A stretch of 64,000 nt of DNA from Microlunatus sp. Gsoil 973 (GTDB taxonomy: Bacteria > Actinomycetota > Actinomycetes > Propionibacteriales > Propionibacteriaceae): contig NZ_CP046122.1 of NCBI RefSeq assembly GCF_009707365.1, positions 3,038,001 through 3,102,000 on the forward strand, read 5' to 3'. This document shows, one piece after another, positions 22,194 through 41,455 of this stretch (position 1 is the first letter of the stretch; every line of letters starts with the position of its first letter). The notes beneath the pieces are model-generated. The model saw only the letters and a program-made list of their open reading frames with translations. It was not told where the DNA came from and ran no database searches. The translations under genes and the position numbers were made by a program.

Positions 22194-23852
22194 TCAGGAT
22201 GATCGGCGCCGGCTGGTGCGGCGTTGCGACGGCTTGGTGACCGGCTCGCCGGCCGCGACCAGGGCCTCGCGCCGCTCGGCGGCGAAACCGGCCAGCGCGT
22301 CGGCCAGTTCCAGCGCCGAGGGTTTGGCCGCGATGACGTCGACGCGCAGACCGTGTTCCTCGCAGGTCTTGGCCGTCGCCGGACCGATGCAGGCGATGAT
22401 CGTCGAAGTGTGCGGCTTGCCGGCGATGCCGACCAGGTTCCGTACCGTCGAGGAGGAGGTGAAGACAACCGCATCGAACTTGCCGGTCTTGATCGCCTCG
22501 CGAACCGGCGCCGGCGGCGGGGCCGCGCGGACCGTCCGGTACGCGGTGACATCCTCGACCTCCCAGCCGAGATCGGTCAGCGCAGCTGACAGGGTCTCGG
22601 TTGCGATGTCCGCGCGCGGCAGGAAGACCCGGTTGATCGGATCGAGAACGTCGTCGTACGGCGGCCATTCGGCAGCCAGGCCGGCGGCGGACTGCTCACC
22701 GGTCGGCACGAGGTCCGGTTCGATCCCCCAGGCCTTCAACGCGCCGGAAGTGGTCTCCCCGACCGCTGCCACCTTCAGGCCGGAGAACGCCCGCGCGTCC
22801 AAACCGTATTGCTCGAACTTCTCCCGTACGGCGCGGACGGCGTTGACCGAGGTGAACGCGACCCATTCGTAGCGACCCTCGACCAGCCCGCGAACCGCCT
22901 TGTCCATCTGCAGCGGACTGCGCGGCGGCTCGACCGAGATGGTCGGCACCTCCTCGCTGTGCGCGCCGTAGGTGCGCAGCCGCGCGGTCATCGAGGCCGC
23001 CTGGTCCTTGGTGCGGGGCACCAGCACGCGCCAGCCGAAGAGGGGCTTGGTCTCGTACCAGCTGAGCGCCTCGCGATTCTCCACTGCGGCGCCCAGGGTG
23101 AGGTGCACCAGTTCGGTGGCCTGGCACGGCACCGTCTTGAGTTCGGCGGGGATCCGGCCGAGCGTTGTGGTGATGCTGATCTGTTCGGTGCTGCCACCGT
23201 GCAGGGTGACGAGCGCCGGTTCGTCAGCCTCGCGCCCGACCGCGGTGGCCACGTCGACGAAGTCGCCGATCATGCTCACCCGGGTGCTCACCACCAGGGT
23301 TGCGACACCGGTCCATTCGGCGGCTGCGGTCTTGGCGAACCTGCCCTCGGTCGCGGACACGAAGTGCACGCCGCCGGCGTTGTTCAGGGCGACGCCGGCG
23401 TACTCCGGAACCGCTGTCAGGGAGCTGACACCGGGGACGACCTCGAAGTCCACCCCTCCGCGGACGCAGGCCGCTGCCTCGTCGGAGACGGCAGCATCGA
23501 GGAACGGGTCACCGCTGACCAGGCGCACCACGCGGGCTCCGCCGCCGGTGTGCTTGAGCACCGCCTTGGCGCGCGCCGACGGCGGCAGCGGCTTGCCTGC
23601 CTCGGACAGCCCGAGGATGGCGACCTCGGCACCATCGGCGAGCTTGATCGCCGGATGGTCGAGGATCTCGCGCTGGCTCTCGGAGTCGAGGATGACCGCG
23701 GTGGCCTCGCCCAGCGCAGCGATGGCACCCAGGGTCAGCAGGTCCGGGTCACCTGGACCTGTGCCGACGAAGATCACCCGGCCGCGTGCGGCAGGGGCAG
23801 CAGTAACGGAACTATCTCTAGGACGGGACTTGCGGGCCGACGATGTGCTCAC
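22194..23852 (-). CDS. hemD: Uroporphyrinogen-III C-methyltransferase / uroporphyrinogen-III synthase fusion
   Basis: 552-residue fusion. Residues about 25-260 are the SAM-dependent methyltransferase (SUMT/CobA) domain: VIFVGTGPGDPDLLTLGAI and RLVSGDPFLDAAVSDEA. Residues about 275-525 are the HemD synthase domain (GWRVLVPRTKDQAASM, FTSVNAVRAV, AVVFTSSSTVRNLV), which cyclises hydroxymethylbilane with inversion of ring D. The fused form is standard in actinobacteria (M. tuberculosis Rv0511, from memory). The C-terminus is a basic tail (SQRRTSRRRSS). GTG at 23852 is chosen because the long upstream extension lacks family similarity. Unlike the overlapping rex-hemA-hemC genes it is separated from hemC by 230 bp. 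Confidence 0.92.
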   Translation of the reverse strand: MSTSSARKSRPRDSSVTAAPAARGRVIFVGTGPGDPDLLTLGAIAALGEATAVILDSESQREILDHPAIKLADGAEVAILGLSEAGKPLPPSARAKAVLKHTGGGARVVRLVSGDPFLDAAVSDEAAACVRGGVDFEVVPGVSSLTAVPEYAGVALNNAGGVHFVSATEGRFAKTAAAEWTGVATLVVSTRVSMIGDFVDVATAVGREADEPALVTLHGGSTEQISITTTLGRIPAELKTVPCQATELVHLTLGAAVENREALSWYETKPLFGWRVLVPRTKDQAASMTARLRTYGAHSEEVPTISVEPPRSPLQMDKAVRGLVEGRYEWVAFTSVNAVRAVREKFEQYGLDARAFSGLKVAAVGETTSGALKAWGIEPDLVPTGEQSAAGLAAEWPPYDDVLDPINRVFLPRADIATETLSAALTDLGWEVEDVTAYRTVRAAPPPAPVREAIKTGKFDAVVFTSSSTVRNLVGIAGKPHTSTIIACIGPATAKTCEEHGLRVDVIAAKPSALELADALAGFAAERREALVAAGEPVTKPSQRRTSRRRSS

Positions 23853-24037
23853 GGGCGATTCTCGCGTTCTTCCTTCCGGATGAGATCGGAGTTGATCCCT
23901 CCCGGATGAACGAGCCCGGCTGACCGCGTCCACCTGTCGTGGGTAGCTCTCGTGGCGTGCGTGCTACGAACTACAGATGTGGCCGGATCGGCCGAGTACG
24001 CTCTTAGGTTTCTGGGTCTGCTGCTGAGTAGGAATTG

Positions 24038-24082: not shown

Positions 24083-25192
24083 TCAGTTGTGCGCTGGTTT
24101 GCGCAACTCCTCGGGATCGATGATCGACAACACCCGCCGTGCCAGGCGCTCTCCCAGTTCTGCCGGATCGCCTTGCTGTCCGCGTCCGGAGATCTTGATC
24201 AAACCGCCGCGCCGGACCAGGTCGTCCGCCCCGGCAGGCCCTTGGTCAGGGACATCGCCGTGCGGAGGGTGTTGCGACTCGCCGTCCCCCTTCGTTCTCC
24301 CAATTACTCCGACCAGAGTCAAATCCGCGCCCGCATCGCGGACGGGCCCACCGTCGGCGATATCGGCGCCGGAGGTGATCTCCGCGCGCGCTCCCACCGG
24401 TGCAGTGCAGCCGGCCTCGAGAACGGCCAGGAAGCGCCGTTCGGCCAGGACTTCTGCCCTGGTGGCAGCGCTGTCGAGCCTAGTCAAAACGGAGCGGATA
24501 TCCGAATCGAGTTTCCGGGCCGCCTCGACGGCAAGCGCTCCCTGTCCGGGCGCCGGCAACAACTCCTCGTACGACAGCAGCCGGGCCGGCAGCCCGGAAA
24601 CGGTCAACTCCGCAGTCCGGCCCTCGATCCGGCCGTCGATCCGGCCCTCGATCCGGCCGAGCCGGCGGAGCCCGGCGGCGGCCAGCACGGTGGCGTCGTA
24701 CCGGCCCTCGCGCACCCGACGGAGCCGGGTGTCGACGTTGCCCCGGATCGGCTCGATCCGGACCTCGACCTCCCGCTCGTCGGCCAACTGCTGCAGTTGG
24801 GCGGCCCGCCGCGGAGCGCCGGTCCCGATCACCAGCGGCCGGCCGGCGGGAGGATCGTCGAGCCAGCGACCGACGATCACCTCGTGGGTGTCCTCGCGAT
24901 CGGGGTAGGCGACGATCTCCAGTTCGGTGACCGGCGCGGTCGGCAGGTCTTTCAGTGAATGCACGCCGATGTCGGCCGTACCGTCCAGCAGCGCGTCGCG
25001 GACGGCGCCGGTGAAGACCCCGGTTCCACCGATCTGGGTGAGTTCGCGCCGGTCGACATCACCCTGGGTGCTGATCGGGACGAATTCCGATTCCACGCCG
25101 TACGACGCCAGCGAGGCGGCGATCAGGTCCGCCTGGGCGCGGGCCAGGGGCGAATTGCGCGCGCCGATCCGTACCCGGGACCCCACGGTCAC
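24083..25192 (-). CDS. hemC: Hydroxymethylbilane synthase (porphobilinogen deaminase)
   Basis: 369 residues. HemC polymerises four porphobilinogens on a covalently bound dipyrromethane cofactor. Visible: N-terminus IGARNSPLARAQADLI, catalytic region HSLKDLPTAP, GTGAPRRAAQL, IRGNVDTRLRR, and the cofactor-binding Cys in FLAVLEAGCTAPVGA. GTG 25192 overlaps the hemA stop (GTGA). Oddities: an insertion of repeated RIEGRIDGRIEGR at about 178-190, and a possible compensating frameshift pair at about residues 305-317, where the alternative frame reads NTLRTAMSLTKG, more like a HemC C-terminal strand than the HPPHGDVPDQG encoded as given. Confidence 0.9.
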   Translation of the reverse strand: MTVGSRVRIGARNSPLARAQADLIAASLASYGVESEFVPISTQGDVDRRELTQIGGTGVFTGAVRDALLDGTADIGVHSLKDLPTAPVTELEIVAYPDREDTHEVIVGRWLDDPPAGRPLVIGTGAPRRAAQLQQLADEREVEVRIEPIRGNVDTRLRRVREGRYDATVLAAAGLRRLGRIEGRIDGRIEGRTAELTVSGLPARLLSYEELLPAPGQGALAVEAARKLDSDIRSVLTRLDSAATRAEVLAERRFLAVLEAGCTAPVGARAEITSGADIADGGPVRDAGADLTLVGVIGRTKGDGESQHPPHGDVPDQGPAGADDLVRRGGLIKISGRGQQGDPAELGERLARRVLSIIDPEELRKPAHN

Positions 25193-26517
25193 TCCGATCC
25201 CGTGATCAGCTCGGTGGAGGCGGCGGCGTCGGCCACCTCGGCCGCCTGGGTGGCGGCATCGGGCGACATCACCGCGGCGACCGTCTGCGGATCAAGGGCG
25301 AACAGCTCCCGGAGGGCGGCGGCGTAGTCCACCTGGCCCTGGTTGGCGGCGAACTCCTGCACCCGGACCGTCGGCTGGTGCAGCAACTTGTCGACCACGC
25401 GGCGTACGGTCTTGGCGATCTCGGCGCGTTGCCGGTCGTCAAGATCGGGCAGTCGCCCGTCGAGTCGCCTCAGCTCGGACTCCGTGACCTCGGCAGCCAT
25501 CGACCGCAGGGCGACCACGGTCGGCGTGACCTGCGAGGCCCGGCGCCGCGCCAGGAAATCATGCACCTCGAGGCGGACCAGCTCCCGCGCGGCGTCCACC
25601 TCCGCGGTCGACACACTGTCGTCGCCGGCTCGCAACAGTCGATCCAGATTGATCAGCGGGACGACCTCGGCGATCGCCGGCTCCGCGTCGGCCGGCAGCG
25701 CGAGATCGATCACTGCGCGCAGCGGCGTGTCGGCGATCAGCCCGCTGGTCAGCACCAGGTCGCGGGCACCGGTGCAGCTGATCACCAGGTCGGAGCCGGC
25801 GAGCACTGCCGGCAGGTCCGCCAGTGGCCTGGCGTGGCCGCCGATCGCGTCGGCCAGCCGGACCGCCCGGTCGAACGTCCGGTTCACCGCGGTCACGTCG
25901 GCTCCTTCGGCCGCAACGGTGCGGGCTGCCAGCGACGCCATCGATCCGGCGCCGACGACGGCCACCCGCACCCCGTCGAGGGATCCGGCCAGGGACTGGT
26001 ACTGGCGCAGGGCCGCCGTGACCATCGACCGTCCCGCCGACCCGATCGCGGTCTCGGTCTGCACCCGCTTCCCAACTCGGATGCCCTGCTGGAACAGGGA
26101 GTTGAGCACCGTGCCGACAGTGCCGACCTGCTGCGACCCGGACAGTGCGGCACGGACCTGGCCGAGGATCTGGTTCTCCCCGATGACCATCGAGTCCAGC
26201 CCGCCCGAGACGTTGAAGGTGTGGGCGACGGCACCCTCGTCGAAATAGACCGAGCAGATGCCCCGGAGCACGGTGGTGGCGACACCGGTCGCCTCGGCCA
26301 GTTGCTCGGTGATCTCGTCCAGGCCGGCGTGGAAGCGTCCGACCTCGGCATAGACCTCGGTGCGGTTGCAGGTGGACAACACCACGGCCTCGTCGATGTG
26401 TTCGCTGCGGGTCAGCGACTCGGCGAGCTTGGCCGATGCATCGGCGTCCATCGCCAGTCTCCCGAGCACCTCGAACGATGTCGTCTTGTGGGAAACACTG
26501 ACCACCAGGATGCTCAC
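25189..26517 (-). CDS. hemA: Glutamyl-tRNA reductase
   Basis: 442 residues. Reduces glutamyl-tRNA(Glu) to glutamate-1-semialdehyde, the committed step of C5 heme synthesis. Signatures: N-terminal VSVSHKTTSFEVLGRL, catalytic Cys in VLSTCNRTEVYAEV, substrate region GLDSMVIGENQILGQVR, NADPH-binding VAVVGAGSMASLAARTV, then the helical dimerisation domain. GTG at 26517 overlaps the rex stop (GTGA). Second gene of the rex-hemA-hemC unit and so probably under Rex control. Confidence 0.95.
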   Translation of the reverse strand: MSILVVSVSHKTTSFEVLGRLAMDADASAKLAESLTRSEHIDEAVVLSTCNRTEVYAEVGRFHAGLDEITEQLAEATGVATTVLRGICSVYFDEGAVAHTFNVSGGLDSMVIGENQILGQVRAALSGSQQVGTVGTVLNSLFQQGIRVGKRVQTETAIGSAGRSMVTAALRQYQSLAGSLDGVRVAVVGAGSMASLAARTVAAEGADVTAVNRTFDRAVRLADAIGGHARPLADLPAVLAGSDLVISCTGARDLVLTSGLIADTPLRAVIDLALPADAEPAIAEVVPLINLDRLLRAGDDSVSTAEVDAARELVRLEVHDFLARRRASQVTPTVVALRSMAAEVTESELRRLDGRLPDLDDRQRAEIAKTVRRVVDKLLHQPTVRVQEFAANQGQVDYAAALRELFALDPQTVAAVMSPDAATQAAEVADAAASTELITGSE

Positions 26518-27296
26518 GACGCAGTTGCCTTCTCGATGCTGCTCTTCTTGATGTTGACGCCGGTCGTGGCGACAACCGTCTCGCCGGTCTGTTCACCGGC
26601 CTGTTGTTCGTGGTAGGCCAGGATCTGCAACTCCTGGCCGAGATCAACCTTGCGCAGGTTGACGTCCGGCGGCACCGTCAACGCTGTCGGTGCAAAGTTC
26701 AGGATGCTCCTCACTCCGCAGGCGATCAGCCGATCGGTCACATCCTGGGCAGCCGAGGCAGGGGTGGCGAGCACGGCGATCCGCGGCGCGGTCCGGCGGA
26801 CGACCTTCTCCAGATCGGCAAGATCGGAGATCGGTACGCCGACGACCTCACGACCGATCAGCGCCGGGTTCGGGTCGAGCAGGGCGACGATCCGGAAACC
26901 GCGAGATCCGAAGCCGGAGTAGTTGGCCAGTGCGGTGCCCAGGTTTCCCAGGCCGACGATGATCACCGGCCACTCCTGGGCCGAGCCGATCTCCCGGCCG
27001 ATCTGAAAGCGCAGGTATTCGACGTCATAGCCGACACCGCGCGTCCCGTAGGTGCCCAGATAGGAGAGGTCCTTGCGAAGCTGGGCGGAGTTCACACCCG
27101 CGGCATCGGCCAGTTCGCCGCTGCTGATCGTGGTCACACCCTCGTCGGCCATCGCGTTCAGCGTGCGCAGATAGACCGGCAGCCGTGCGATGGTCGCGTC
27201 GGGGATGCCCTTCTCAGAGGCCGGCCGCTCGGAACGCATCTGCTCGCCCTGCTGGCCGATTCCCCCGCCGTGTGGCCGGGGCTGTGAGGGCGTCAC
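26514..27296 (-). CDS. rex: Redox-sensing transcriptional repressor Rex
   Basis: 260 residues. N-terminal winged helix (IPDATIARLPVYLRTLNAM, ELADAAGVNSAQLRKDLSYL) and a C-terminal Rossmann domain with VIIVGLGNLGTALANYSGF that binds NADH/NAD. The phrase GTYGTRGVGYDVEYL is the usual interdomain signature. NADH binding releases Rex from its operators, derepressing respiratory genes when oxygen is short. GTG at 27296 is preceded by GGAGG; an internal ATG at 27239 (MRSERPAS) is possible. A Rex operator-like site lies 53 bp upstream at 27349-27366, so rex probably represses itself with hemA and hemC. Confidence 0.93.
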   Translation of the reverse strand: MTPSQPRPHGGGIGQQGEQMRSERPASEKGIPDATIARLPVYLRTLNAMADEGVTTISSGELADAAGVNSAQLRKDLSYLGTYGTRGVGYDVEYLRFQIGREIGSAQEWPVIIVGLGNLGTALANYSGFGSRGFRIVALLDPNPALIGREVVGVPISDLADLEKVVRRTAPRIAVLATPASAAQDVTDRLIACGVRSILNFAPTALTVPPDVNLRKVDLGQELQILAYHEQQAGEQTGETVVATTGVNIKKSSIEKATAS

Positions 27297-27348
27297 GTGC
27301 CTTGTGCCTCCGATGTGTTCCAGTGCTCCGCGAACTCACTCTAGGAGC

Positions 27349-27366
27349 TTGTGAACGCGATAACAA
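27349..27366. promoter_or_regulatory. Rex operator (ROP) between rex and narG
   Basis: TTGTGAACGCGATAACAA. The Streptomyces coelicolor Rex operator consensus is TTGTGAA-N4-TTCACAA; here the left half is perfect and the right half differs at 2 positions (ATAACAA for TTCACAA). It is 53 bp upstream of rex and about 108 bp upstream of the narG start, in the divergent gap, so it could serve both directions. Confidence 0.75.
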
Positions 27367-27473
27367 ACCATCTGGTCGGCTGTTGCTCAGGCGTGAGGCA
27401 CGACCTGTCCATTTCGGGTGAACTCGGCGTGGGGTTCTTGCCAAGATCAGCAAACCGGTGCTTGTCTGGGTTC

Positions 27474-30400
27474 GTGGCTGGGGCACAGAAGCTTCCGGAC
27501 GTCGACGGTGCGGCGGGACGAGCACTGCTGGATACCGCCCGATTCTTCACGCGCTGGGAGGAGTCCGACGATCGCCGAGCGGTGTTTCGTCGGGGCGGCC
27601 GGTCCGGTGATGCGTTCTATCGGGACCGGTGGAGCCACGACAAGATCGTCCGATCCACCCACGGCGTCAACTGCACCGGATCGTGTTCCTGGAAGGTATA
27701 CGTCAAGGACGGGGTGATCACCTGGGAGAGCCAGCAGACCGACTATCCGTCGGTCGGCCCGGACCGCCCGGAGTACGAGCCCCGCGGTTGTCCGAGAGGA
27801 GCGGCGTTCTCCTGGTACACCTACTCTCCGACCCGGGTCCGGTATCCCTACGCGCGGCAGGTGCTGGTCGAGGCCTATCGGAGCGCCCGTCGGCAGAACC
27901 GGGACCCGGTGGACGCTTGGGCGGCGGTGGTCGGAGATCCCGACACGCGTCGCCGCTACCAGCAGGCCCGGGGCAAGGGTGGCCTGACCCGGATCAGTTG
28001 GGACGAGGCGCTGGAGATCATCGCGGCGGCCCACGTCCATACGATCAAGACCTACGGGCCGGACCGGTGCGCAGGGTTCTCCCCGATCCCGGCCATGTCG
28101 ATCGTCAGCCATTGCATCGGCACCCGCTTCATCCAGCTGATCGGCGGGGTGATGACGTCCTTCTACGACTGGTACGCCGACCTGCCGGTGGCCAGCCCGC
28201 AGGTCTTCGGCGACCAGACCGACGTCCCGGAGTCCGGTGATTGGTGGGACAGCACCTACCTGATGATGTGGGGCTCCAACGTTCCGGTCACCCGGACCCC
28301 GGACGCGCACTGGATGACCGAGGTCCGCTATCGCGGCACCAAGGTGGTCAGCGTCAGCCCCGACTACGCCGACAACACCAAGTTCGCCGACGAGTGGCTG
28401 CCTGCACAGGCCGGCAGCGACGCCGCGCTGGCGATGGCGATGGGTCACGTCGTCCTCAAGGAGTTCTTCGTCGACCGGCGGACACCCTTCTTCTCCGACT
28501 ACGTCAGCCGGTTCACCGATCTGCCCTTCCTGGTGCGGCTTGACCAGCGGGGCGACGGAACGTTCGTCCCCGGAAAGTTCCTCACCGAATCCGACCTGGT
28601 GCCGGCCCGCGGCCCGGAGAGCGATTGGAAGACCGTCGTCCTGGACGACGGCACCGGCCAACCGGTCGTGCCGAACGGCTCGATCGGCTTCCGCTACGCC
28701 GACTCCGGCGAAGGACGCTGGAACCTTGATCTCGGCAACGTCACGCCCCGGCTGACCCTGGCCGACAGTGGCGCCCCGGTCGAGGTCGCACTACCCGCCT
28801 TCACCGCCGCCGACGGAACCGGGGAGGTGCTTCGCCGCGGAGTGCCGGCGCAGCGCGTCGGTGATCATCTGGTCACCACGGTCTTCGACCTGATGTTGGC
28901 CCAGTACGGCGTCGGCCGGCCCGGGCTGCCCGGCGAGTGGCCGACCGATTACACCGACGTCGATCATCCGTACACGCCGGCCTGGCAGGCCGAGATCACC
29001 AGCGTGCCTGCCGAGCAGTGCATCAGGGTGGCCCGGGAGTTCGCCCGCAACGCCATCGACTCCGGTGGCCGGTCCATGATCATCATGGGCGGTGGGATCT
29101 GCCAATGGTTCCACGGCGACGCCACCTATCGGGCGGTCCTCGCGCTGTTGATGTTGACGGGTTGCCAGGGCCGCAACGGTGGCGGCTGGGCGCACTACGT
29201 CGGACAGGAGAAGTGCCGCCCGCTGACCGGCTGGCTGTCCCTGGCCAACGGGCTCGACTGGTCCCGGCCACCGCGCACCGTGCCGGGAACGTCGTACTGG
29301 TACATGCATACCGGGCAATGGCGCAACGACGGCTACAGCGCCGATGCCCTGCTCTCCCCGCTCGGATCCGGCCGGATGGCCGGCCGGCACACCGCTGACC
29401 TGATCGCGCAATCGGCCCGGCTGGGCTGGATGCCGTTCTATCCGCAGTTCTCCGCCAATCCGCTTGATGTCGCCGACCGGGCCGAACAGGCGGTCGCCGA
29501 CGGGCAGGCGCCGGACACTGCAAGCTTTGTGGCCGCGGAGTTGCGGGCGGGCCGGCTGGAGCCGGCGATCGCCGACATCGACGCGGAACAGAACTGGCCT
29601 CGCACCCTGGTGGTGTGGCGATCCAACCTGATCGGATCGTCAGCCAAGGGCAACGAGTACTTCATCAACAACCTGCTCGGCACCCGGTCCAATCTTCCGG
29701 AACCGCCTGATCAGCAGGCCGGGCCGCACCCGGCCGAGGTCCGCTGGCGGGATGACGCACCGCAGGGCAAGTTGGACCTGTTGGTGTCCGCGGACTTCCG
29801 GATGACGTCGACCACGTTGCACAGCGATGTCGTGCTGCCGGCCGCCACCTGGTACGAGAAGCACGACCTGTCGTCCACCGACATGCATCCCTTCGTCCAT
29901 GCCTTCAACCCGGCGATCGAACCGCCGTGGCAGGCCCGCACCGACTTCCGGCTGTTCACCGATCTGGCCCGCAAACTGTCCGAGCTGGCCGCCGGTCACC
30001 TGGACACGCGCAAGGACCTGGTGTCGGTGCCGATGCAACACGACACCGCGGGCGAGACCTCCCAGCCGCGCGGCGTCGTCCGGGACTGGTTGACCGACGA
30101 TCAGGTGGAGGCGGTCCCCGGCCGGACTATGCCGATCTTCACCGTGGTGGAACGGGACTACACCGCCATCGCCGACAAACTCGCCGCGGTCGGACCGCTG
30201 GCGGACCAACTGGGGTTCACCGTCAAGGGCACCACCTTCGAGTTGTCCCAGGCCTTGGACGGGCTGTCCCGCAGCAACGGTGTGATGCTCGGCGGCCGGA
30301 CCGACGGCCGACCAGCCATCGACACCGACGCCAAACTGGCCGAGGCGATCCTGCGGTTCTCCGGAACGACCAACGGAGCTCTTGCGGTCCAGGGATTCCG

Positions 30401-31187
30401 GCAGCTGGAACGCCGGGTCGGCAAGCGGCTCGCCGATCTTGCCGAAGGCTCGGAGGAGCGTCGGATCACCTTCGCCGACACCCAGGCGGCACCCACTCCG
30501 GTGATCACCTCGCCGGAGTGGTCAGGATCGGAGACCGGTGGCCGCCGTTATGCGCCGTTCACGGTCAACATCGAACGCCTCAAGCCGTTCCACACCCTGA
30601 CCGGGCGGATGCACTTCTACCTTGATCACGACTGGATGGCCGATCTTGGTGAGTCCCTGCCGCTCTACCGACCGCCGCTGGACATGCACCGACTCTTCGG
30701 CGAGCCGCGACTCGGCCGCAACGGCGCCCAAGTCACTGTGAGGTACCTGACACCGCACTCCAAGTGGTCGATCCACTCCGAATATCAGGACAACCTGTTG
30801 ATGCTGTCACTGTCCCGCGGTGGTCCGACGGTCTGGATGAGCTCGGACGACGCAGCCTCGATCGGGGTCGCCGACAACGAATGGGTCGAGGTGGAGAGCG
30901 GCAACGGTGTCTTCGTCGGCCGGGCGATCGTCAGTCACCGGATCCCCGACGGAATCGTGTTCGTCTATCACGTGCAGGAACGCACCATCGACGTACCGAA
31001 GTCGGAGCGCACCGGGCGCCGCGGCGGCACGCACAACTCGGTGACCCGGCTGATGATCAAGCCCACACATCTGATCGGCGGATACGCCCAGCTGTCCTAC
31101 ACGTTCAACTATCTGGGACCGACCGGCAACCAGCGCGACATCGTCGCGACCGTGCGGAAGCGCAGCCAGGAGGTGACCTACCGATGA
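27474..31187 (+). CDS. narG: Respiratory nitrate reductase alpha subunit
   Basis: 1237 residues, the usual NarG size. Mo-bis-MGD catalytic subunit that reduces nitrate to nitrite on the cytoplasmic face. The FS0 cluster ligands are in STHGVNCTGSCSWKVYV (His plus Cys residues), the molybdenum Asp is in FYDWYADLP, and EPRGCPRGAAFSWYTYSPTR is diagnostic. No twin-arginine motif is obvious in the short N-terminus. GTG at 27474 is chosen because it leaves about 46 residues before DAFYRDRWSHDK, as in relatives; a GTG at 27351 lies inside the Rex operator and is unlikely. Stop overlaps narH (ATGA). Head of narGHJI-narK. Confidence 0.93.
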   Translation: MAGAQKLPDVDGAAGRALLDTARFFTRWEESDDRRAVFRRGGRSGDAFYRDRWSHDKIVRSTHGVNCTGSCSWKVYVKDGVITWESQQTDYPSVGPDRPEYEPRGCPRGAAFSWYTYSPTRVRYPYARQVLVEAYRSARRQNRDPVDAWAAVVGDPDTRRRYQQARGKGGLTRISWDEALEIIAAAHVHTIKTYGPDRCAGFSPIPAMSIVSHCIGTRFIQLIGGVMTSFYDWYADLPVASPQVFGDQTDVPESGDWWDSTYLMMWGSNVPVTRTPDAHWMTEVRYRGTKVVSVSPDYADNTKFADEWLPAQAGSDAALAMAMGHVVLKEFFVDRRTPFFSDYVSRFTDLPFLVRLDQRGDGTFVPGKFLTESDLVPARGPESDWKTVVLDDGTGQPVVPNGSIGFRYADSGEGRWNLDLGNVTPRLTLADSGAPVEVALPAFTAADGTGEVLRRGVPAQRVGDHLVTTVFDLMLAQYGVGRPGLPGEWPTDYTDVDHPYTPAWQAEITSVPAEQCIRVAREFARNAIDSGGRSMIIMGGGICQWFHGDATYRAVLALLMLTGCQGRNGGGWAHYVGQEKCRPLTGWLSLANGLDWSRPPRTVPGTSYWYMHTGQWRNDGYSADALLSPLGSGRMAGRHTADLIAQSARLGWMPFYPQFSANPLDVADRAEQAVADGQAPDTASFVAAELRAGRLEPAIADIDAEQNWPRTLVVWRSNLIGSSAKGNEYFINNLLGTRSNLPEPPDQQAGPHPAEVRWRDDAPQGKLDLLVSADFRMTSTTLHSDVVLPAATWYEKHDLSSTDMHPFVHAFNPAIEPPWQARTDFRLFTDLARKLSELAAGHLDTRKDLVSVPMQHDTAGETSQPRGVVRDWLTDDQVEAVPGRTMPIFTVVERDYTAIADKLAAVGPLADQLGFTVKGTTFELSQALDGLSRSNGVMLGGRTDGRPAIDTDAKLAEAILRFSGTTNGALAVQGFRQLERRVGKRLADLAEGSEERRITFADTQAAPTPVITSPEWSGSETGGRRYAPFTVNIERLKPFHTLTGRMHFYLDHDWMADLGESLPLYRPPLDMHRLFGEPRLGRNGAQVTVRYLTPHSKWSIHSEYQDNLLMLSLSRGGPTVWMSSDDAASIGVADNEWVEVESGNGVFVGRAIVSHRIPDGIVFVYHVQERTIDVPKSERTGRRGGTHNSVTRLMIKPTHLIGGYAQLSYTFNYLGPTGNQRDIVATVRKRSQEVTYR

Positions 31188-32929
31188 GGGTGATGGCCCA
31201 GGTCGCGATGATCATGAATCTCGACAAGTGCATCGGATGCCATACCTGTTCGGTGACCTGTAAACAGACGTGGACCAACCGGGCCGGCATGGAATACGTG
31301 TGGTTCAACAACGTCGAGACCCGACCGGGCCAGGGCTACCCACGCCGGTATGAGGATCAGGAGCGGTGGCGCGGCGGCTGGCATCTCACCAGCCGCGGGA
31401 AGCTGCGGCTGCGTACCGGCAGCCGCTTGCGCCGGCTGGCGACGATCTTCGCCAGTCCGGTCCAGCCCAACATCTCCGACTACTACGAGCCGTGGACCTA
31501 CGACTACAACATGCTGACCGAGTCACCGCTCGGTGACGACGCACCGGTCGCCCGCCCGAAGTCGCTGCTCACCGGTCACGACACCAAGATCAAGTGGTCG
31601 GCGAACTGGGACGATGATCTTGGCGGCTCGCAGCAGTACGGTTCGGCCGATCCGCTGGTGCAGAAGGTCCGGGAGCGTTCGGAGGAGAAGATCCGCTTCG
31701 AGTTCGAACGGACCTTCATGTTCTATCTGCCGCGGATCTGCGAACACTGCCTCAATCCCAGCTGTATGGCGTCCTGCCCGTCCGGTGCGATCTACAAGCG
31801 CTCCGAGGACGGCATCGTACTCGTTGATCAACAACGCTGCCGCGGGTGGCGGCAGTGCATCACCGGCTGCCCGTACAAGAAGATGTACTTCAACCACAAG
31901 TCGGGAAAGGCGGAGAAGTGCACGCTCTGCTACCCGCGGGTGGAGGTCGGTCTGCCGACCGTGTGCGCGGAGACCTGCGTCGGCCGGCTGCGGTATCTGG
32001 GGATCTTCCTCTACGACGCGGATGCGGTGACCGCGGCCGCATCGGTGCCCGATGAGAAGGACCTCTACCAGGCGCAACTGGACCTGATGTTGGACCCGAA
32101 CGATCCGGCGGTGATCGCCGAAGCTCGCAAGCAGGACATTCCCGACTCCTGGTTGGATGCTGCGCGACGTTCGCCGGTCTATCAGCTGGCCAAGGTCTAC
32201 AAGATCGCTCTGCCGCTGCATCCGGAGTACCGCACCATGCCGATGGTCTGGTACGTGCCGCCGCTGTCGCCGGTGGTGGACCTGCTGTCGGAGCAGGGTC
32301 ACGACGCCGAGGACGCCGGCGTGCTGTTCGGCGCGATCGAGTCGCTGCGTGTCCCGGTCGAATATCTGGCCGAACTCTTCACCGCCGGCGACACCAACGT
32401 GGTGCTCGGCGTACTGCATCGGTTGGCTGCGATGCGTTCCTACATGCGTGACGTGACGCTCGGGCGGCCGACGGATCCGGGGATCCCGGAGGCGGTCGGG
32501 ATGACCGAACAGCAGGTGCAGGCGATGTACCGCCTGCTGGCGCTGGCCAAGTACTCCGAGCGCTATGTGATTCCGCCGGCCCACCTGGAGGAGGCACACA
32601 ATCTGGAGGAGATCGGCTGCTCGCTGGAGTTCGAGGACGGGCCGGGCATGTACGGCGCCGGTCCGATGGGCGAGGCCAGCGGCCAACCGGTGCCGGTAGC
32701 CGTGGAAACCTTCCACAGCCTGCGACAACGGCAGAGTTCCGACAGCGCCACCGATGCATCCGAGCTTCGCGGCCGGGTCAATCTGCTGAACTGGGACGGC
32801 AACGGCCGGCCACCCGGTCTGTTCCCCGAGACCCCTCCCGGAGATTCCACCCTCGGTCAGATCGACGCATCCGATCAGTCCAACCAGTCCGACCAGCCGA
32901 GTCGACCCGACCACGCAGCAGGATCATGA
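31184..32929 (+). CDS. narH: Respiratory nitrate reductase beta subunit
   Basis: 581 residues. Electron-transfer subunit with three [4Fe-4S] and one [3Fe-4S] clusters linking NarI hemes to NarG. Four Cys groups are visible: CIGCHTCSVTCKQTW, CEHCLNPSCMASCP, CRGWRQCITGCPYKKM (Trp replaces one Cys, as expected for the 3Fe cluster) and CTLCYPRVEVGLPTVCAETC. The last 60 or so residues form a hydrophilic Ser/Gln/Asp-rich tail (NQSDQPSRPDHAAGS) that is longer than in Escherichia coli. ATG 31184 overlaps the narG stop; ATG of narJ overlaps its own stop. Confidence 0.94.
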   Translation: MRVMAQVAMIMNLDKCIGCHTCSVTCKQTWTNRAGMEYVWFNNVETRPGQGYPRRYEDQERWRGGWHLTSRGKLRLRTGSRLRRLATIFASPVQPNISDYYEPWTYDYNMLTESPLGDDAPVARPKSLLTGHDTKIKWSANWDDDLGGSQQYGSADPLVQKVRERSEEKIRFEFERTFMFYLPRICEHCLNPSCMASCPSGAIYKRSEDGIVLVDQQRCRGWRQCITGCPYKKMYFNHKSGKAEKCTLCYPRVEVGLPTVCAETCVGRLRYLGIFLYDADAVTAAASVPDEKDLYQAQLDLMLDPNDPAVIAEARKQDIPDSWLDAARRSPVYQLAKVYKIALPLHPEYRTMPMVWYVPPLSPVVDLLSEQGHDAEDAGVLFGAIESLRVPVEYLAELFTAGDTNVVLGVLHRLAAMRSYMRDVTLGRPTDPGIPEAVGMTEQQVQAMYRLLALAKYSERYVIPPAHLEEAHNLEEIGCSLEFEDGPGMYGAGPMGEASGQPVPVAVETFHSLRQRQSSDSATDASELRGRVNLLNWDGNGRPPGLFPETPPGDSTLGQIDASDQSNQSDQPSRPDHAAGS

Positions 32930-33582
32930 CGCTCAAACGCAGGCGTGCCGCCGTACCCGCTGCCGACCGGCTGATCAGGCAGGTGGCCTCCTTCTGTCTC
33001 TGCTACCCCGACGACCTGGTCTCGGCCCGGCTCCCGGAGCTCGTGGCGATCATGGAATCCCAGCCGACCGGTCGCGGCAGGGATGCGCTGCTGGATTTCT
33101 TGCACGCATGGACCGCGATTGATCCCGATGAGCGTCGTCGTCGCTACGTCGATCTTTTCGATCTTGATCGTGGCCACGCGCTGTATCTGTCCTACTGGAC
33201 CGATGGGGACACCCGACGGCGAGGGCAGGCGTTGGCGCGGTTCAAGGCGCAGTACCGCAGCAGTGGGTTCCTGCTCGCCGATGATCAAGAACTGCCGGAC
33301 TTCCTGCCGATCGTCCTGGAGTACGCCGCCGTCGTCGATCCGCAGCAGGGCAGCCAGTTGCTCCAGGACTACCGGGCGTCCCTGGAGATGTTGCGGTTCG
33401 CACTGATCGACAGTGGATCGCCGTTCGCCCTGGTGGTGGCCGCGGTGTGTACGACGTTGCCGGGAGAGTCGCCGAGAAGCCGCGCCGAGGTGCAGCAGCT
33501 TGCTCCGCCGACGCCACCGGTCGAAACCGTCGGCCTGGAAAGTGTCGGACCGGTCAGTGTCGAGCTGGAGGCGTACTCGTGA
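32926..33582 (+). CDS. narJ: Nitrate reductase molybdenum cofactor assembly chaperone
   Basis: 218 residues, helical TorD/DmsD-related chaperone (NarJ) that holds apo-NarGH until the cofactor and FS0 cluster are inserted. Recognisable core: QVASFCLCYPDDL, DLFDLDRGHALYLSYWTDGDTRRRGQAL, PDFLPIVLEYAA (the first 20 residues of the middle one are the NarJ signature). The C-terminal part is Pro-rich. ATG overlaps narH (ATGA) and the stop overlaps the narI GTG. Confidence 0.92.
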   Translation: MTLKRRRAAVPAADRLIRQVASFCLCYPDDLVSARLPELVAIMESQPTGRGRDALLDFLHAWTAIDPDERRRRYVDLFDLDRGHALYLSYWTDGDTRRRGQALARFKAQYRSSGFLLADDQELPDFLPIVLEYAAVVDPQQGSQLLQDYRASLEMLRFALIDSGSPFALVVAAVCTTLPGESPRSRAEVQQLAPPTPPVETVGLESVGPVSVELEAYS

Positions 33583-34325
33583 ATCTGATCTTGTGGGGCA
33601 TCCTCCCGTACGCGATGATCGTCGTGCTGGTCGGCGGCACCATCTGGCGATACCGCTACGACAAGTTCGGTTGGACGACCCGATCGTCCCAGCTGTACGA
33701 ATCCCGTTTGCTGCGCTGGGGTTCCCCGCTCTTCCACTTCGGCATCCTTGTTGTGATCATCGGCCACCTTGCCGGGCTCGTGATTCCCGAGTCGTGGACC
33801 GCGGCGGTTGGCGTCACCGAACACGACTACCACCTGGTGGCTCTCAGCCTGGGCGCGCTCGCCGGTTTCTGCACCTTGATTGGAATCGGCATCCTGATCT
33901 TCCGGCGGCGGACCACCGGGCCGGTCTTCATGGCGACAACCAAGAACGACAAGACGATGTACGTGGTCCTCGTCGCGGCGCTGGTCTTCGGACTGCTGAC
34001 CACGCTGCTCTACGCCGGCGTCGGCGGCGGGCAGACGCACAACTATCGGGAGAGCGTCTCGCCCTGGTTCCGGTCACTGTTCATTCTGCAGCCCAAGATC
34101 GATTCGATGGCCGCCTCACCGCTGTCGTTCCGGGTCCACACCTTGATCGGAATGGCCCTCTTCGTGATCTTCCCGTTCACCCGATTGGTGCATGCCTTCA
34201 CCGTGCCCGTGCACTATCTCTTCAGGCCGTACATCGTCTATCGGAGCAGGGACGTCGGTCCGTCGGGCAGCCGCGCTCCCCGACCGGGCTGGGCTCCGGT
34301 GGGGACCCGGGACCGGGATCGCTGA
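33579..34325 (+). CDS. narI: Respiratory nitrate reductase gamma subunit (cytochrome b)
   Basis: 248 residues with five membrane helices. NarI binds two b hemes and oxidises menaquinol, passing electrons to NarH. Heme-ligand His residues are visible in HFGILVVIIGHLAG (helix 2) and HTLIGMALFVIFPFTRLVHA (helix 5). GTG at 33579 is set by overlap with the narJ stop (GTGA) and by the normal start NLILWGILPYAMI. The tail is Pro/Arg-rich and cytoplasmic. narK follows 9 bp later. Confidence 0.93.
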   Translation: MNLILWGILPYAMIVVLVGGTIWRYRYDKFGWTTRSSQLYESRLLRWGSPLFHFGILVVIIGHLAGLVIPESWTAAVGVTEHDYHLVALSLGALAGFCTLIGIGILIFRRRTTGPVFMATTKNDKTMYVVLVAALVFGLLTTLLYAGVGGGQTHNYRESVSPWFRSLFILQPKIDSMAASPLSFRVHTLIGMALFVIFPFTRLVHAFTVPVHYLFRPYIVYRSRDVGPSGSRAPRPGWAPVGTRDRDR

Positions 34326-34334
34326 GGGGATCCG

Positions 34335-35549
34335 ATGGCCGAAGTCAGCGCGACCGAGACCACGACGATCGCTCCCCGCGGACAGGCCCGCAACCTGGCG
34401 ATGGCCACCGCCGCCTTCGCCATCAGCTTCTGGGGTTGGAATGAGATCGGGCCGCTCGGAGCCCGGTATACCGACGAGCTCGGGTTGAGCAGCACCCAGA
34501 AATCCCTGTTGGTCGCCATACCGGTGCTGGTGGGGTCGTTGGGGCGCATCGTCTCCGGTGCGCTGACCGACCGGTACGGCGGCCGGCTGATGTTCACCGT
34601 CCTGTTGGTGATCTCGGCACCCTTTGCGTTCCTGGTCGGGATCGCCGGTGCTGAGCACTCCTACCTGTGGTTGTTGATCATCGGGTTCTTCCTGGGCATT
34701 GCCGGCACCACGTTTGCCGTCGGTGTCCCGTTCGTCAACGCCTGGTTCCCGCCGGAACGACGCGGGTCGGCGCTTGGCATCTTCGGCGCCGGGATGGGTG
34801 GCACGGCGTTGTCGGCCTTCTTCACGCCGCGGTTCGTGGGCTGGTTCGGATATCTGCCGACACATGTGATCATCGCCGTGGCATTGCTGGTGGGTGCCGC
34901 GTTGTGCTGGCTGCTGATGCGGAATGCGCCGGGGTGGCAGCCCAGCCGCCAACCGGTGGTGCCCAAGATCGCCGGTGCGCTGCGGCTCGGCGTCACCTGG
35001 CGGATGTCCTTCCTGTACGCGATCGCGTTCGGCGGCTTCGTCGCCTTCTCCACCTATCTGCCGACCTACATCCACGACATCTACGACTTCAGCCTCACCA
35101 AGGCGGGGACGCGGACGGCCGTGTTCGCGATCGTCGCAGTCATCGCCAGACCGATCGGTGGCGCACTGGCCGACCGGATCGGGCCGCGACGGGTGGTGGC
35201 GATATCACTGACCGGCACCGCCGTCATGGCGGTCATCGTCGCGCTGCAACCGCCACCCGACCTCGCCTCCGGTTCGACCTTCGTCGCGTTGGCGTTCTTC
35301 CTGGGTCTTGGTACCGGCGGTGTCTTCGCCTGGGTCGCACTGCAGGCGCCGCCGGACCGGGTTGGCAGCATCACCGGCGTCGTGGGTGCGATGGGCGGCA
35401 TCGGTGGCTTCTTCCCGCCGTTGGTGATGGGAGCGACCTACCATCTGGTGTTCCCTGACTACGGCCTCGGTCTTGCCCTGCTGACCCTGCTCGCCGTAGG
35501 CGGTCTGGCCTTCACCCTGCTCACCAAGAGCCAACCCCGCGCCACCTGA
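34335..35549 (+). CDS. narK: Nitrate/nitrite transporter, NarK family (MFS)
   Basis: 404 residues, twelve-helix major facilitator. NarK proteins import nitrate and/or export nitrite for the cytoplasmic reductase. The MFS loop motifs are GRIVSGALTDRYGGR (between helices 2 and 3) and RPIGGALADRIGPRR (between 8 and 9). The NarK nitrate-signature-like glycine runs GIFGAGMGGTALSAF and GVVGAMGGIGGFFPP are present in helices 5 and 11. Whether it is a symporter or antiporter cannot be told. Last gene of the nar unit, 9 bp after narI. Confidence 0.9.
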   Translation: MAEVSATETTTIAPRGQARNLAMATAAFAISFWGWNEIGPLGARYTDELGLSSTQKSLLVAIPVLVGSLGRIVSGALTDRYGGRLMFTVLLVISAPFAFLVGIAGAEHSYLWLLIIGFFLGIAGTTFAVGVPFVNAWFPPERRGSALGIFGAGMGGTALSAFFTPRFVGWFGYLPTHVIIAVALLVGAALCWLLMRNAPGWQPSRQPVVPKIAGALRLGVTWRMSFLYAIAFGGFVAFSTYLPTYIHDIYDFSLTKAGTRTAVFAIVAVIARPIGGALADRIGPRRVVAISLTGTAVMAVIVALQPPPDLASGSTFVALAFFLGLGTGGVFAWVALQAPPDRVGSITGVVGAMGGIGGFFPPLVMGATYHLVFPDYGLGLALLTLLAVGGLAFTLLTKSQPRAT

Positions 35550-35620
35550 CCCGCCCCGGGCCGCACTCGGTGCGCGCCGCCCAGCGTCACCCTCGTCGCT
35601 CGGGTCGCCCTCGTCGCAAG

Positions 35621-36022
35621 GTCAAACGTTGAGGTCGCAAGGTCGAAGTTTGAGCGTACGCATCAGATCCCCGCCGAAAACCAGCCACAGGATCAAACGT
35701 TGAGGTTCGGAATCGGGTGGCTCTCGGACGCACGAACCCGAACCCCGCACCCCGAACCCGATGTCGGAAGATCAAACTTTGAGGTCGCAAGATCGAAGTT
35801 TGAGCCTACGCACCAAATCCCCGCCGAAAACCAGCCACAGGATCAAACGTTGAGGTTCGGAATCGGGTGGCGGCTGCCGGGGGGGAAGAACCGAACCGTG
35901 GCGGCCGTTCCAGGCGCTCCCGCACCGCCGCGGGCCACCCGGTCCCATGTCGCAAGATCAAAGTTTGAGCGTACGCACCAAATCGGGCGCAGATTGAGCC
36001 GCAGGATCAACCTTTGACCTTC
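35621..36022. repeat. 150-bp direct repeats carrying eight TCAAA-N-TTTGA-like motifs
   Basis: A segment of about 100 bp at 35621-35720 recurs at 35771-35870 (offset exactly 150) and partly at 35948-36022. Each copy carries two or three palindromic 11-mers of the form TCAAA-N-TTTGA: starts at 35622, 35643, 35693, 35772, 35793, 35843, 35958 and 36007. Spacings are 21 and 50, then 21 and 50 again, then 49. The block is in the gap after narK and is not coding. Regular spacing of an inverted motif suggests repeated protein binding, but no regulator is identified. Confidence 0.85.
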
Positions 36023-36148
36023 GGTTCGGCGCCGGCGGGTGGTTCGGCGCCGGCGGGTGGTTCGGCGCCGGCGGGTGGTTCGGCGCCGGCGGGTGGTTCG
36101 GCGCCGGCGGGTGGTTCGGCGCCGGCGGGTGGTTCGGCGCCGGCGGCC
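36023..36148. repeat. 18-bp minisatellite, about 7 units
   Basis: GGTTCGGCGCCGGCGGGT repeated head to tail from 36023 (units at 36023, 36041, 36059, 36077, 36095, 36113, and a degenerate one at 36131), followed by decayed GC-rich copies to about 36180. Because the unit is a multiple of three, open frames appear on both strands (GSAPAG or AEPPAG peptides), but none has a start signal or extends into a recognisable domain, so I treat it as non-coding. Confidence 0.88.
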
Positions 36149-36211
36149 GGCTCGGCGCCACGCGGCCGGCTCGGCGCCCCGGGGTATCCGGACATCCGCC
36201 CTCGGCGACGA

Positions 36212-36541
36212 TCACTCGGTGTGGAAGACCTCCTCGGCAGGTGCCCACCACTGGTCATCCGAGGTCGTCTCCAGCGACTCCTGCATCGGGTCGGTGATCT
36301 TCCACCAATCCTGGGTGGTCGGATCGTCGGCCATCCGCTTCATATCGGCAGCCAGGTCCTCGCCGTGGTATTCGAAGTACGCGAAAAGCAGATTCTCCGG
36401 TTCGCGCAGAAAGATCGAATAGTTCTTGATTCCCGACTCGGCGATCTGGGCGAGTACGCCCGGCCAGACGTCGGCGTGGATCCGCTTGTATTCCTCGATC
36501 GCCTCCGGCTTGAGCCGGATGATCTGGGCAACACGCTGCAT
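36212..36541 (-). CDS. rhaM: L-rhamnose mutarotase family protein
   Basis: 109-residue dimeric ferredoxin-like fold protein of the RhaM/RhaU family, which interconverts alpha and beta anomers of L-rhamnose. Family features are RVAQIIRLKPEAIEEYKRIH, VWPGVLAQIAESGIKNYSIF, LLFAYFEYHGEDLAADM and TTQDWWKITDPMQ. Other rhamnose genes are not in the window, so it is isolated from a catabolic operon. ATG at 36541. Confidence 0.88.
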   Translation of the reverse strand: MQRVAQIIRLKPEAIEEYKRIHADVWPGVLAQIAESGIKNYSIFLREPENLLFAYFEYHGEDLAADMKRMADDPTTQDWWKITDPMQESLETTSDDQWWAPAEEVFHTE

Positions 36542-38080: not shown

Positions 38081-41000
38081 ATGGCACAGTCGAACTGGCC
38101 AGGCTCGAGCAGTCGGCCACGGCGGCGGCGCGCAGTCTCTGTCCTGACTGCCGCGCTGACTGCGCTCGGCGGGTTGCTGGCGCTGGTTCCGAACACGGCA
38201 CCGGCGACAGCCGGGCCGCCGCTGACGGTCACCGCGAAGGCCGTCCCGGCATCCGGCGGCAGCGTGCAGCCCGGCAGCAAGATCACCTACACGCTGCAGG
38301 CCAGCAGCGAGCAACCGCTGTCCGGCAGCGCGGTGGTTGTCGACGACCTTTCCGGCCTGCTGACGAATGCCGAAATCGCCTCAGCCGAACAGACCCTGAC
38401 CAGGCAGAATCTGTCGCTCGACCCGGCCACCAAGGACCTCACCTGGACACTGCCGGCACTGGGCACGGCGGGCGCGCCACGATCAACGGCGGCCACTTTC
38501 GTGGCGAAGACGTCCGCGGATGCACCAGCCGGGGCGAAGCTGACCACGGCGGCAGCTCTGGCGGGAAGCCGGTGCGCGGCAAGCGATCCGTGCGCCACCA
38601 CCCTCACTGTGGCTGCACGGGAAGCCAGCGAGTCGCCCGCGGCCACCTCCTCACCATCAGCGGCAAGGGCACCGTCCTCATCGCCAACTGCTCCTCGGTC
38701 GGCGGACAGTTCGTGGTCACCGGCCGGATCACCGGATGCGGCTCCATCCTCGGCTGCGCCCTCCTCCCCAGACCCAACGCCCTCCCCGACCGCCGACGCT
38801 CCTGTGCAGACAGGTCCCGTCGCGCCGGACCCGCCTTCCTCGTCTGCTTCAACGAGCCCGTCGACAACCTCGCGTCCCGCTCACCGCGGGATCCGGACGC
38901 CGGCACCCGATTCGGCGACCACGACGAAATCGCCGGCCACGGCGAAAGCAGCTGAGCGGGTGGGGCCATTCTCCGTGGTCAATCCCGGCCAACCGTGCCC
39001 GACGACAGCCCAGACAGCCACGCTCGTCGTTCAAGGATTCGAGATCGACGGCAACTGCCAGGTCAACGCGGCCGGCAATCTGGACTGGGAGAGCCCCGCG
39101 GTCGGCGATCAGCCGGTGGACCGCGACGGCCTCGGCGACGGCACCCAGTACGCCAGCGGCAGTGAGGGCAACTGGCCCAACTGGACCGGCGCCGCGGGCG
39201 GGGGCAGCGCATCGGGGCAGGCAGACATCAACGACGTTTACGCGTTCGCGACCAGGGACTCGGTCACCAACAACATCTGGGAGATGTTCGGTTTCAGCCG
39301 CGCGGCCTCCAGCGGCTCCATCGGCTACACGCTCGAGGTGAACCAGCGACCCAATCGGTCGACGAACCCCGCCATACCGGACCGTACGACCGGCGACTGG
39401 CGGTTCAACCTGACGCAGAACGGCAGCCGGCCGCTGGCCCTTGCCAACTGCCAGCGCTGGACGTCCAGCGGGCCGTCGTCGGGATCCTGGGGCGCCGTCA
39501 GTTGCCCGGACAACTTCTTCGCCGCAACCAGCACCGACGGGTTGTTCCTCGAAGCCGCGATGAACCTGACGGTGCTGACGGGTCAGGTTCCCGGGTGCGA
39601 CCTGATCGACAAGTTCAGCACCATCAACTTCCGCTCCCGGCAATCCCAGCAGTTCGACAGCTCGGCGCTGAAGGATTACATCAACCCGATCGAGGTGGAA
39701 GCCCCACAGGACTGCCTCGAACGAGAGATGACGACCACCGCCGCCGACACCACCCTCGGCGGGGACGTGACCGACACCGCGACGCTGACGGCAACCGGGG
39801 GCGGGCCGACTCCGACCGGGACAGTGACCTTCCGGCTGTTCGGCCCGTCCGCCTCGGCAGAGTGCAGCGGCGATCCCGTGTTCACCTCAGATCCGATTCC
39901 GCTCGTGGACGGCGAGGCCACCTCTCCGCCCTTCACACCGGCCGCGGCCGGGAACTACCACTGGGTGGTTTTGTACTCCGGTGAGGCGAACTACCTCGGT
40001 CTCACCAGCGCCTGCGGCGAGACGGGTGAAACATCGACCGTCGCGAGGGCAGCGGTCACCATCGTGACGGCGGCGAACGACGCCACGCTGCCCGACGCCA
40101 CCATCTCCGACTCCGCGACCGAATCCGGGGTCGACGGCGGGCCGGAACCGACCGGCACGCTGATCTTCACCGCGTACGGGCCGACCGATTCCGCCACCGC
40201 GGTGTGCGACGCCGTCGCCTTCACCTCCGACCCCGTGGAGCTCGAAGCCAGCGCGACGGGCATCGGGCAAGCGTCGGCCTCGTTCCACCCGACAACGGCT
40301 GGTACCTACTATTGGCGGGTCTCGTACTCGGGAGATTCGAACTACTCCCCACTGACGACCCCGTGCGGCGACGCCAACGAGAGATCGGTGGTCAGCAAGG
40401 CATCGCCGATCATCTCAACGTCCGCCACGTCGGCCGGCCCGGGCCAAGAGATCTCCGACACTGCCGTCCTGTCCAGGATCCAATCCCCCATCGGCGGCAC
40501 CGTCACCTTCGCCCTGTACGGCCCGTTCCCCGACTCCACGGGCCCCGACTGCAGCGCTGCCAACCTGGCGTTCCAGTCGACTGATCGGCCGCTCACCGAG
40601 GTCAACGGCGGATCGGCGGCACGTGCCACCTCCGAGCCCTTCGTCGTGCCGATGGATGCGCTGGGTATGCGCTACTTCTGGGTGGCGTCGTACACGGGTG
40701 ACGACAACAACGACGCCGTCGTCAGTGGGTGCGGCGCCAACGGTGAGACATCGCTGGTCCGCGGGACCCTCCCGACGATCACCACAACCGCGACCGACAC
40801 CATCACCCTCGGCGAAACGATCGCTGACGCCGTCCAGGTTGCCGGGCCGGCCGGCGGGCCGACGCCGACCGGCACCGTACGCTTCCTGGCCTACCCGACC
40901 GACGACACCGAGTGCGTGGGCAACCCGCTGTTCGAGTCGGACGCCATCGACCTGGTGAACGGGCGAGCGACGTCGGAGCCCTTCACCCCGCCCGCGGTGG

Positions 41001-41455
41001 GAACCTATCGATGGCGCGTCGCCTACTCCGGTGATGACGAATTCATCAGTCTGACCAGCGCCTGCAACGCCGACGGCGAGACGTCGGTGGTGACCAAAGC
41101 CACTCCGTCGATCTCCACCCAGGCGACCTCGGTGCAACTCGGCAGTTCACCAAGCGACACGGCGACCGATGTCGGCGTGACCGGAGTTGCCGGCATGCCC
41201 GCACCCACCGGCACCGTGACCTTCACGGCCTACGGGCCTTCACCGACCCCGGACTGCACCGGCCAACCCGCGTTCGATTCCGGGCCAATGGAACTCCGGC
41301 CCGGGGCCGCCCGGTGGAGTCGATCGCTACGGCCTCGTTCACACCACCGCCGCGAGCGGGCAGCTACTACTGGAGGGTCTCCTACTCCGGCGACGACAAC
41401 TACACGGCCCTTCCACAGAGCCCTTGCGGCGAGGCCGGTGAGACGTCCACCGTGA
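38081..41455 (+). CDS. Giant secreted surface protein, N-terminal part (frameshift-separated)
   Basis: As given, 1124 residues; it is really the front of one protein of about 3396 residues ending at 48270. A signal peptide (RRRRAVSVLTAALTALGGLL, cleavage after ATAG about residue 47) leads to a DUF11-like domain (50-185), a Ser/Pro-rich linker (about 190-300), a lectin-like or adhesin N-domain of about 240 residues (GFEIDGNCQVNAAGNLDWES, then DINDVYAFATRDS), and from about 548 seven Ig-like repeats (GTVTFRLFGPS, then YSGEANYLGLTSACG). The fifth repeat derails at about 41291-41313: one base seems missing and the rest is nonsense to 41455. The continuation is the next entry. Confidence 0.85.
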   Translation: MAQSNWPGSSSRPRRRRAVSVLTAALTALGGLLALVPNTAPATAGPPLTVTAKAVPASGGSVQPGSKITYTLQASSEQPLSGSAVVVDDLSGLLTNAEIASAEQTLTRQNLSLDPATKDLTWTLPALGTAGAPRSTAATFVAKTSADAPAGAKLTTAAALAGSRCAASDPCATTLTVAAREASESPAATSSPSAARAPSSSPTAPRSADSSWSPAGSPDAAPSSAAPSSPDPTPSPTADAPVQTGPVAPDPPSSSASTSPSTTSRPAHRGIRTPAPDSATTTKSPATAKAAERVGPFSVVNPGQPCPTTAQTATLVVQGFEIDGNCQVNAAGNLDWESPAVGDQPVDRDGLGDGTQYASGSEGNWPNWTGAAGGGSASGQADINDVYAFATRDSVTNNIWEMFGFSRAASSGSIGYTLEVNQRPNRSTNPAIPDRTTGDWRFNLTQNGSRPLALANCQRWTSSGPSSGSWGAVSCPDNFFAATSTDGLFLEAAMNLTVLTGQVPGCDLIDKFSTINFRSRQSQQFDSSALKDYINPIEVEAPQDCLEREMTTTAADTTLGGDVTDTATLTATGGGPTPTGTVTFRLFGPSASAECSGDPVFTSDPIPLVDGEATSPPFTPAAAGNYHWVVLYSGEANYLGLTSACGETGETSTVARAAVTIVTAANDATLPDATISDSATESGVDGGPEPTGTLIFTAYGPTDSATAVCDAVAFTSDPVELEASATGIGQASASFHPTTAGTYYWRVSYSGDSNYSPLTTPCGDANERSVVSKASPIISTSATSAGPGQEISDTAVLSRIQSPIGGTVTFALYGPFPDSTGPDCSAANLAFQSTDRPLTEVNGGSAARATSEPFVVPMDALGMRYFWVASYTGDDNNDAVVSGCGANGETSLVRGTLPTITTTATDTITLGETIADAVQVAGPAGGPTPTGTVRFLAYPTDDTECVGNPLFESDAIDLVNGRATSEPFTPPAVGTYRWRVAYSGDDEFISLTSACNADGETSVVTKATPSISTQATSVQLGSSPSDTATDVGVTGVAGMPAPTGTVTFTAYGPSPTPDCTGQPAFDSGPMELRPGAARWSRSLRPRSHHRRERAATTGGSPTPATTTTRPFHRALAARPVRRPP

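Follow-up and report, generated by a model that had tools for sequence, protein, structure and literature searches.

The divergent gap between rex, which encodes an NADH-sensing repressor, and narG, which encodes the alpha subunit of respiratory nitrate reductase, contains a Rex-like palindrome in Microlunatus sp. Gsoil 973 (genome size = 4.9 Mb, one contig). This arrangement raises the question of whether the element serves as an operator for the rex-hem genes, for the nar genes, or for both. We analyzed a window of 64 kb, which is the whole stretch of DNA under study, together with rex and narG loci from related genomes.

The rex-narG gap and its genes

The element, TTGTGAACGCGATAACAA, occupies positions 27349-27366 of the window and reads TTGTTATCGCGTTCACAA towards rex (minus strand); an earlier note on this DNA had given both its sequence and its coordinates exactly. 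It lies 52 bases from the start of rex (GTG at 27296, minus strand) and 107 bases from that of narG (taken as GTG at 27474), and it departs from the Streptomyces-type palindrome TTGTGAAN4TTCACAA at two of the 14 specified positions. Within the 64-kb window it was the sole match to this consensus at up to three mismatches. Shuffled windows of the same length contained a mean of 0.31 such matches, with at least one in 28 of 100, so the sequence alone is weak evidence across 64 kb; the site gains weight because the match falls in the gap before rex. The looser pattern TTGTGN8CACAA, also allowing up to three mismatches, was not enriched in the window (90 observed vs. 122 expected).

On one side of the gap, rex (26514-27296, minus strand; NCBIfam NF003992, 341 bits, cut-off 226) heads a hem operon in which the reading frames of rex, hemA and hemC overlap and hemD follows. 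The Rex protein matches solved PDB Rex relatives (best E = 3.3e-47). The downstream genes, all on the minus strand, are hemA for glutamyl-tRNA reductase (25189-26517; NF000744, 471 bits, cut-off 429), hemC for hydroxymethylbilane synthase (24083-25192; TIGR00212, 225 bits, cut-off 164), and a uroporphyrinogen-III methyltransferase/HemD fusion in a single reading frame (22194-23933; two domains, both below the model cut-offs). On the other side, the plus strand carries narG (27474-31187; TIGR01580, 1537 bits, cut-off 1084), whose start was set by alignment to residue 1 of its counterpart in the relative G011, followed by narH (31193-32929, start approximate but N-terminus observed; the longer ORF scores 741 bits with TIGR01660), narJ (32926-33582; TIGR00684, 121 bits), narI (33447-34325; PF02665, 299 bits), and a narK-type nitrate/nitrite transporter gene (34335-35549; MFS_1, and TIGR00886 with E = 1.5e-59, below the cut-off). 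The true start of narI is probably further in, the match to the relative G006 beginning at residue 23.

Several repeats were also observed in the window. The stretch after narK (35640-36180) is repeat-rich, with direct repeats that include AAGTTTGAGCSTACGCACCA and a short array of GGCGGGTGGTTCGGCGCC in tandem. Of 81 candidate matches to parts of 35620-36060, 40 were scored, giving at least 18 matches at other places in the genome. A large Ig-domain protein is encoded at 38081-41455, and downstream of it copies of a similar 18-mer are spaced 339 bp apart across 44662-46713 (at 44662, 45001, 45340, 45679, 46018, 46357, and 46696), a spacing that is a sign of a putative tandem repeat. The sequence GTGTGGAMTTGGTAACAC occurs twice, 51 bp apart, at 3915-3983.

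Conservation upstream of rex and the putative rex promoter

Our conservation search covered 96 genomes from the genus, family, and order to which this species belongs (its own genome counted), and rex was present in 75 of them. The element was found at up to three mismatches upstream of 62 of the 75 rex loci of the order (61/74 without our own genome), vs. 3 of 1500 dinucleotide-shuffled rex upstream regions that had either up to three mismatches to the consensus or an exact TTGTN7TTCACAA. This difference indicates that the element is real, while the 62 are not independent events, since many are close relatives. The 13 regions without the element, which count against its role as the rex-hem operator, comprised seven of 20 same-genus genomes, five members of the family from outside the genus, and G070, where a shifted near-miss form is present. 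Among the 62, TTGT is invariant and the TTCACAA columns reach 0.97-1.00, values that are inflated because these regions were chosen by this very motif. At its fifth position, the nar-side half has T in 43 regions and G in the other 19, and a TAGAGT-like hexamer is kept at a fixed distance from the element (0.92 each for T, A, and the final T).

These columns agree with the only promoter-like pair that a looser scan recovered in the gap, TTGTTA-17-TAGAGT, composed of a putative -35 hexamer inside the operator (27361-27366, minus strand) and a putative -10 hexamer (27338-27343, minus strand). Since the pair faces rex, the operator would extend over the -35 and the greater part of the spacer, and both the pair and the conserved columns place the site on the rex promoter. 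A scan for consensus promoters and terminators across 27200-27560 returned nothing at its threshold; its silence on narG carries little weight because the same scan misses the rex promoter too. The putative -35 hexamer falls on the nar-side half, TTGTT. It had been suggested in the earlier note that affinity may be tuned by an imperfect half-site, an idea that is not borne out, as TTGTT is the majority form (43/62) and also the -35 hexamer. Read as the -35 element, and being the more frequent variant across the order, the seemingly imperfect half accounts for the asymmetry of the operator and needs no tuning for nar.

These results suggest that the site is very probably the operator through which Rex autoregulates the rex-hemACD promoter and that the nar promoter is probably driven mainly by something else. 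The assignment to rex-hem had been made in the earlier note, and it is strongly supported by the conservation and by the overlap with the -35 of the rex promoter. Rex with bound NAD+ would cover the -35 hexamer and the spacer and so keep RNA polymerase off, and a rise in NADH would cause Rex to leave, allowing rex-hem expression. The nar-side half would read TTGTT because the same bases serve as the -35 element. The nar operon of this lineage would then stand directly against the operator, with its own promoter expected somewhere in the 107 bp beyond. This reading gains from an equal placement in Streptomyces avermitilis, where the DNase footprint of Rex on rex extends from -39 to -17, includes the -35, and contains the site TTGTGCACGCGTTCACAA (PMC5355995). 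The two mismatches count against it, given that some motif-bearing regions of Staphylococcus aureus were not shifted by Rex (PMC2883068 lists pgi, 5S rRNA, and hemE as 'No shift', and the shift of vicR required NAD+).

Across the whole genome, 31 places matched the consensus at up to three mismatches, compared with 13 for a reversed control pattern, and nine matched at up to two, the rex-narG site included. Fifteen of the 31 were inspected, namely the rex-narG site, two sites before the classical Rex targets atp and nuo, and 12 sites without an established target; one further site, near the classical target cydA, was also inspected. The first of the two precedes the atp operon (L119), in which a small gene is followed by those for the ATP synthase subunits, and the second (L124, L151) precedes a geranylgeranyl-reductase-like gene with nuo genes after it. 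Together with the Rex family match and the genome-wide count of 31 vs. 13, these sites favour the rex-hem operator assignment. Counted against it is the result for cydA, upstream of which no Rex-like site was found at up to three mismatches, a nearby match lying inside the gene. The cydA upstream region (L192, contig C1 of this genome, upstream of 4091485) contains several TACTAC/GTAGTA elements, which we take to be of the motif type used by BlaI-type repressors, and their presence suggests that cytochrome bd may be under other control.

The rex-nar junction and alternative readings of the site

In two relatives (G011 and G012), the gene order is rex, rhaM, a glutaredoxin-like gene, and a HAD gene. 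In the present genome, narGHJIK and the repeat-rich stretch separate rex from rhaM (36212-36541, minus strand; PF05336). A third relative, G006, has nar in the same rex-rhaM gap and is otherwise similar, but its narG lies about 3 kb from rex. A DUF7144 gene and a MalT/LuxR-type regulator gene were observed between the two (L106, 1175-4004). The rex-side DNA homology ends at the operator edge, at 27369 (G006), 27368 (G011), and 27370 (G012), and this end at 27368-27370 argues for the site being the operator of rex-hem. Homology resumes inside narG, at 27507 (G006) and 27540 (G011), and the nar-side leader (27367-27473, plus strand) does not align to the G006, G011, G012, and G019 loci save for 1-4 bases at the operator edge. 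At the DNA level, narG is 80-84% identical among this genome, G006, and G011, and rex (80-85%) and the HAD gene (79-85%) show similar identities among these three and G012. This similarity favours relocation of genes inherited within the genus over a recent import. This species and the three relatives differ at just the rex-nar junction.

Direct juxtaposition of the rex operator and nar was present only in this genome among those compared. No narG was found in the rex loci of 74 relatives within the 1.5 or 2.5 kb upstream, a reach beyond which the nar genes of G006 lie. The nearest same-contig rex-narG pair in the class was 66 kb apart among the 59 of 102 narG-bearing genomes (own excluded) with a listed rex position, a test in which fragmented genomes cannot exclude neighbourhood. 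We also compared narG upstream regions from 77 loci, of which 12 were dropped because they were duplicates, lacked narG or its start, or had no DNA upstream. Among the remaining 65 distinct regions (200-500 bp, own included), in which close relatives are over-represented (best 30 matches and a few more), only that of this genome contains a Rex-like site at up to three mismatches; the next best were two regions at four mismatches. This single occurrence likewise favours the rex-hem operator.

The search for a narG promoter bears on the same question. Between 27300 and 27480 on the plus strand, the looser scan found no TANNNT and no sigma-70-like pair, and no convincing match to NarL, FNR, or DosR consensus strings was found in the rex-narG gap. 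Three still looser -10 candidates (GAGCTT at 27345, AACCAT at 27366, and CAAGAT at 27442) are all unconvincing. AACCAT abuts the operator, with a best available -35 of 2/6, and CAAGAT has the best -35 of the three (3/6). With CAAGAT as the -10, the operator would be located approximately 90-105 bp upstream of the inferred start, presumably too far for simple blocking.

The earlier note had proposed that one operator acts on both sides, such that Rex would also repress the nar operon (narGHJIK) and accumulating NADH would relieve the repression of both haem synthesis and nitrate respiration. Several observations are in line with this proposal. The nar operon is divergent and the predicted site stands 107 bp before narG, a gene that has a Rex motif upstream in S. 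aureus as well, and AACCAT, if used as the -10, would place the operator inside the nar promoter. In S. aureus, DNA upstream of narG is shifted by Rex, narG mRNA is increased in a rex mutant, and a conserved promoter for SigA or SigB was likewise not found upstream of narG (PMC2883068); a Rex-like motif is also reported before narG in Parageobacillus (PMC13077300). Against it stand the lack of a recognisable sigma-70-like narG promoter, the poor -35 of AACCAT and the remote position implied by the slightly better CAAGAT, the 64 other narG upstream regions examined that have no site at up to three mismatches, such that the site is not kept with narG in related genomes, and the intervening 3 kb and two other genes in G006. 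The weight of the missing promoter is tempered by the fact that activator-dependent nar promoters may lack consensus elements. On balance, we consider shared control possible but rather unlikely. As the nar promoter is probably driven mainly by something else, any effect of Rex on narG would be incidental or secondary.

A related and doubtful possibility is that nar was captured into the Rex regulon by relocation against an existing operator, so that one site would throttle haem synthesis and nitrate respiration divergently; the notion of a regulon gained by gene relocation, rather than by evolution of a new site, belongs to this capture scenario and is equally doubtful. If nar were also controlled, the locus would offer a clear example from nature of an operon that entered a regulon because it came to adjoin an existing operator.

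Binding by a regulator of the CRP/FNR family in place of Rex is very improbable. The core TGTGAACGCGATAACA does fit TGTGAN6TCACA with one mismatch, which counts against the assignment to Rex, but in 43/62 regions the nar-side half has T at its fifth position where TGTGA would have G, and the position is that of the Rex site footprinted in S. avermitilis. Still less credible is a chance match whose conservation is due to the promoter only, a reading helped by the frequency of matches in shuffled windows, by the coincidence of some conserved columns with the -35 and -10, and by the motif-based choice of the 62, but opposed by the retention of the TTCACAA block in the spacer between the hexamers and by a conservation of 62/75 vs. 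3/1500 shuffles, which cannot arise from the hexamers alone.

Comparison with known Rex systems

Rex regulons were reportedly treated by Ravcheev et al. in 2012. In the titles and abstract openings of the open-licence papers listed, no description of a shared rex-nar operator was found. The S. aureus Rex regulon includes narG, nirC, and nirR (PMC2883068), and Rex control of narG is thus known; shared control would therefore be plausible here, yet of no new kind. The geometry is alike, with the motif at -107 from the narG start in that species and a gap of 107 bp between site and narG here. Unlike the S. aureus case, in which Rex shifts the DNA and narG mRNA rises, the present case is a prediction from sequence, and the site belongs to the rex promoter itself, which nar adjoins.

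Compared with the rex-hem loci of Streptomyces coelicolor and S. avermitilis, the present locus differs in three respects: the nar-side half is TTGTT, a divergent nar operon stands beside the operator, and no Rex-like site precedes cydA. The operator sequence itself is TTGTGCACGCGTTCACAA in S. avermitilis and TTGTTATCGCGTTCACAA here. As in both Streptomyces species, rex precedes hemA, hemC, and hemD, and the operator, here as read from the DNA, lies over the -35 of the rex promoter and between the -35 and -10. Overall, the element is most probably a textbook Rex autoregulatory operator, documented across an actinobacterial order in the genus Microlunatus and its relatives.
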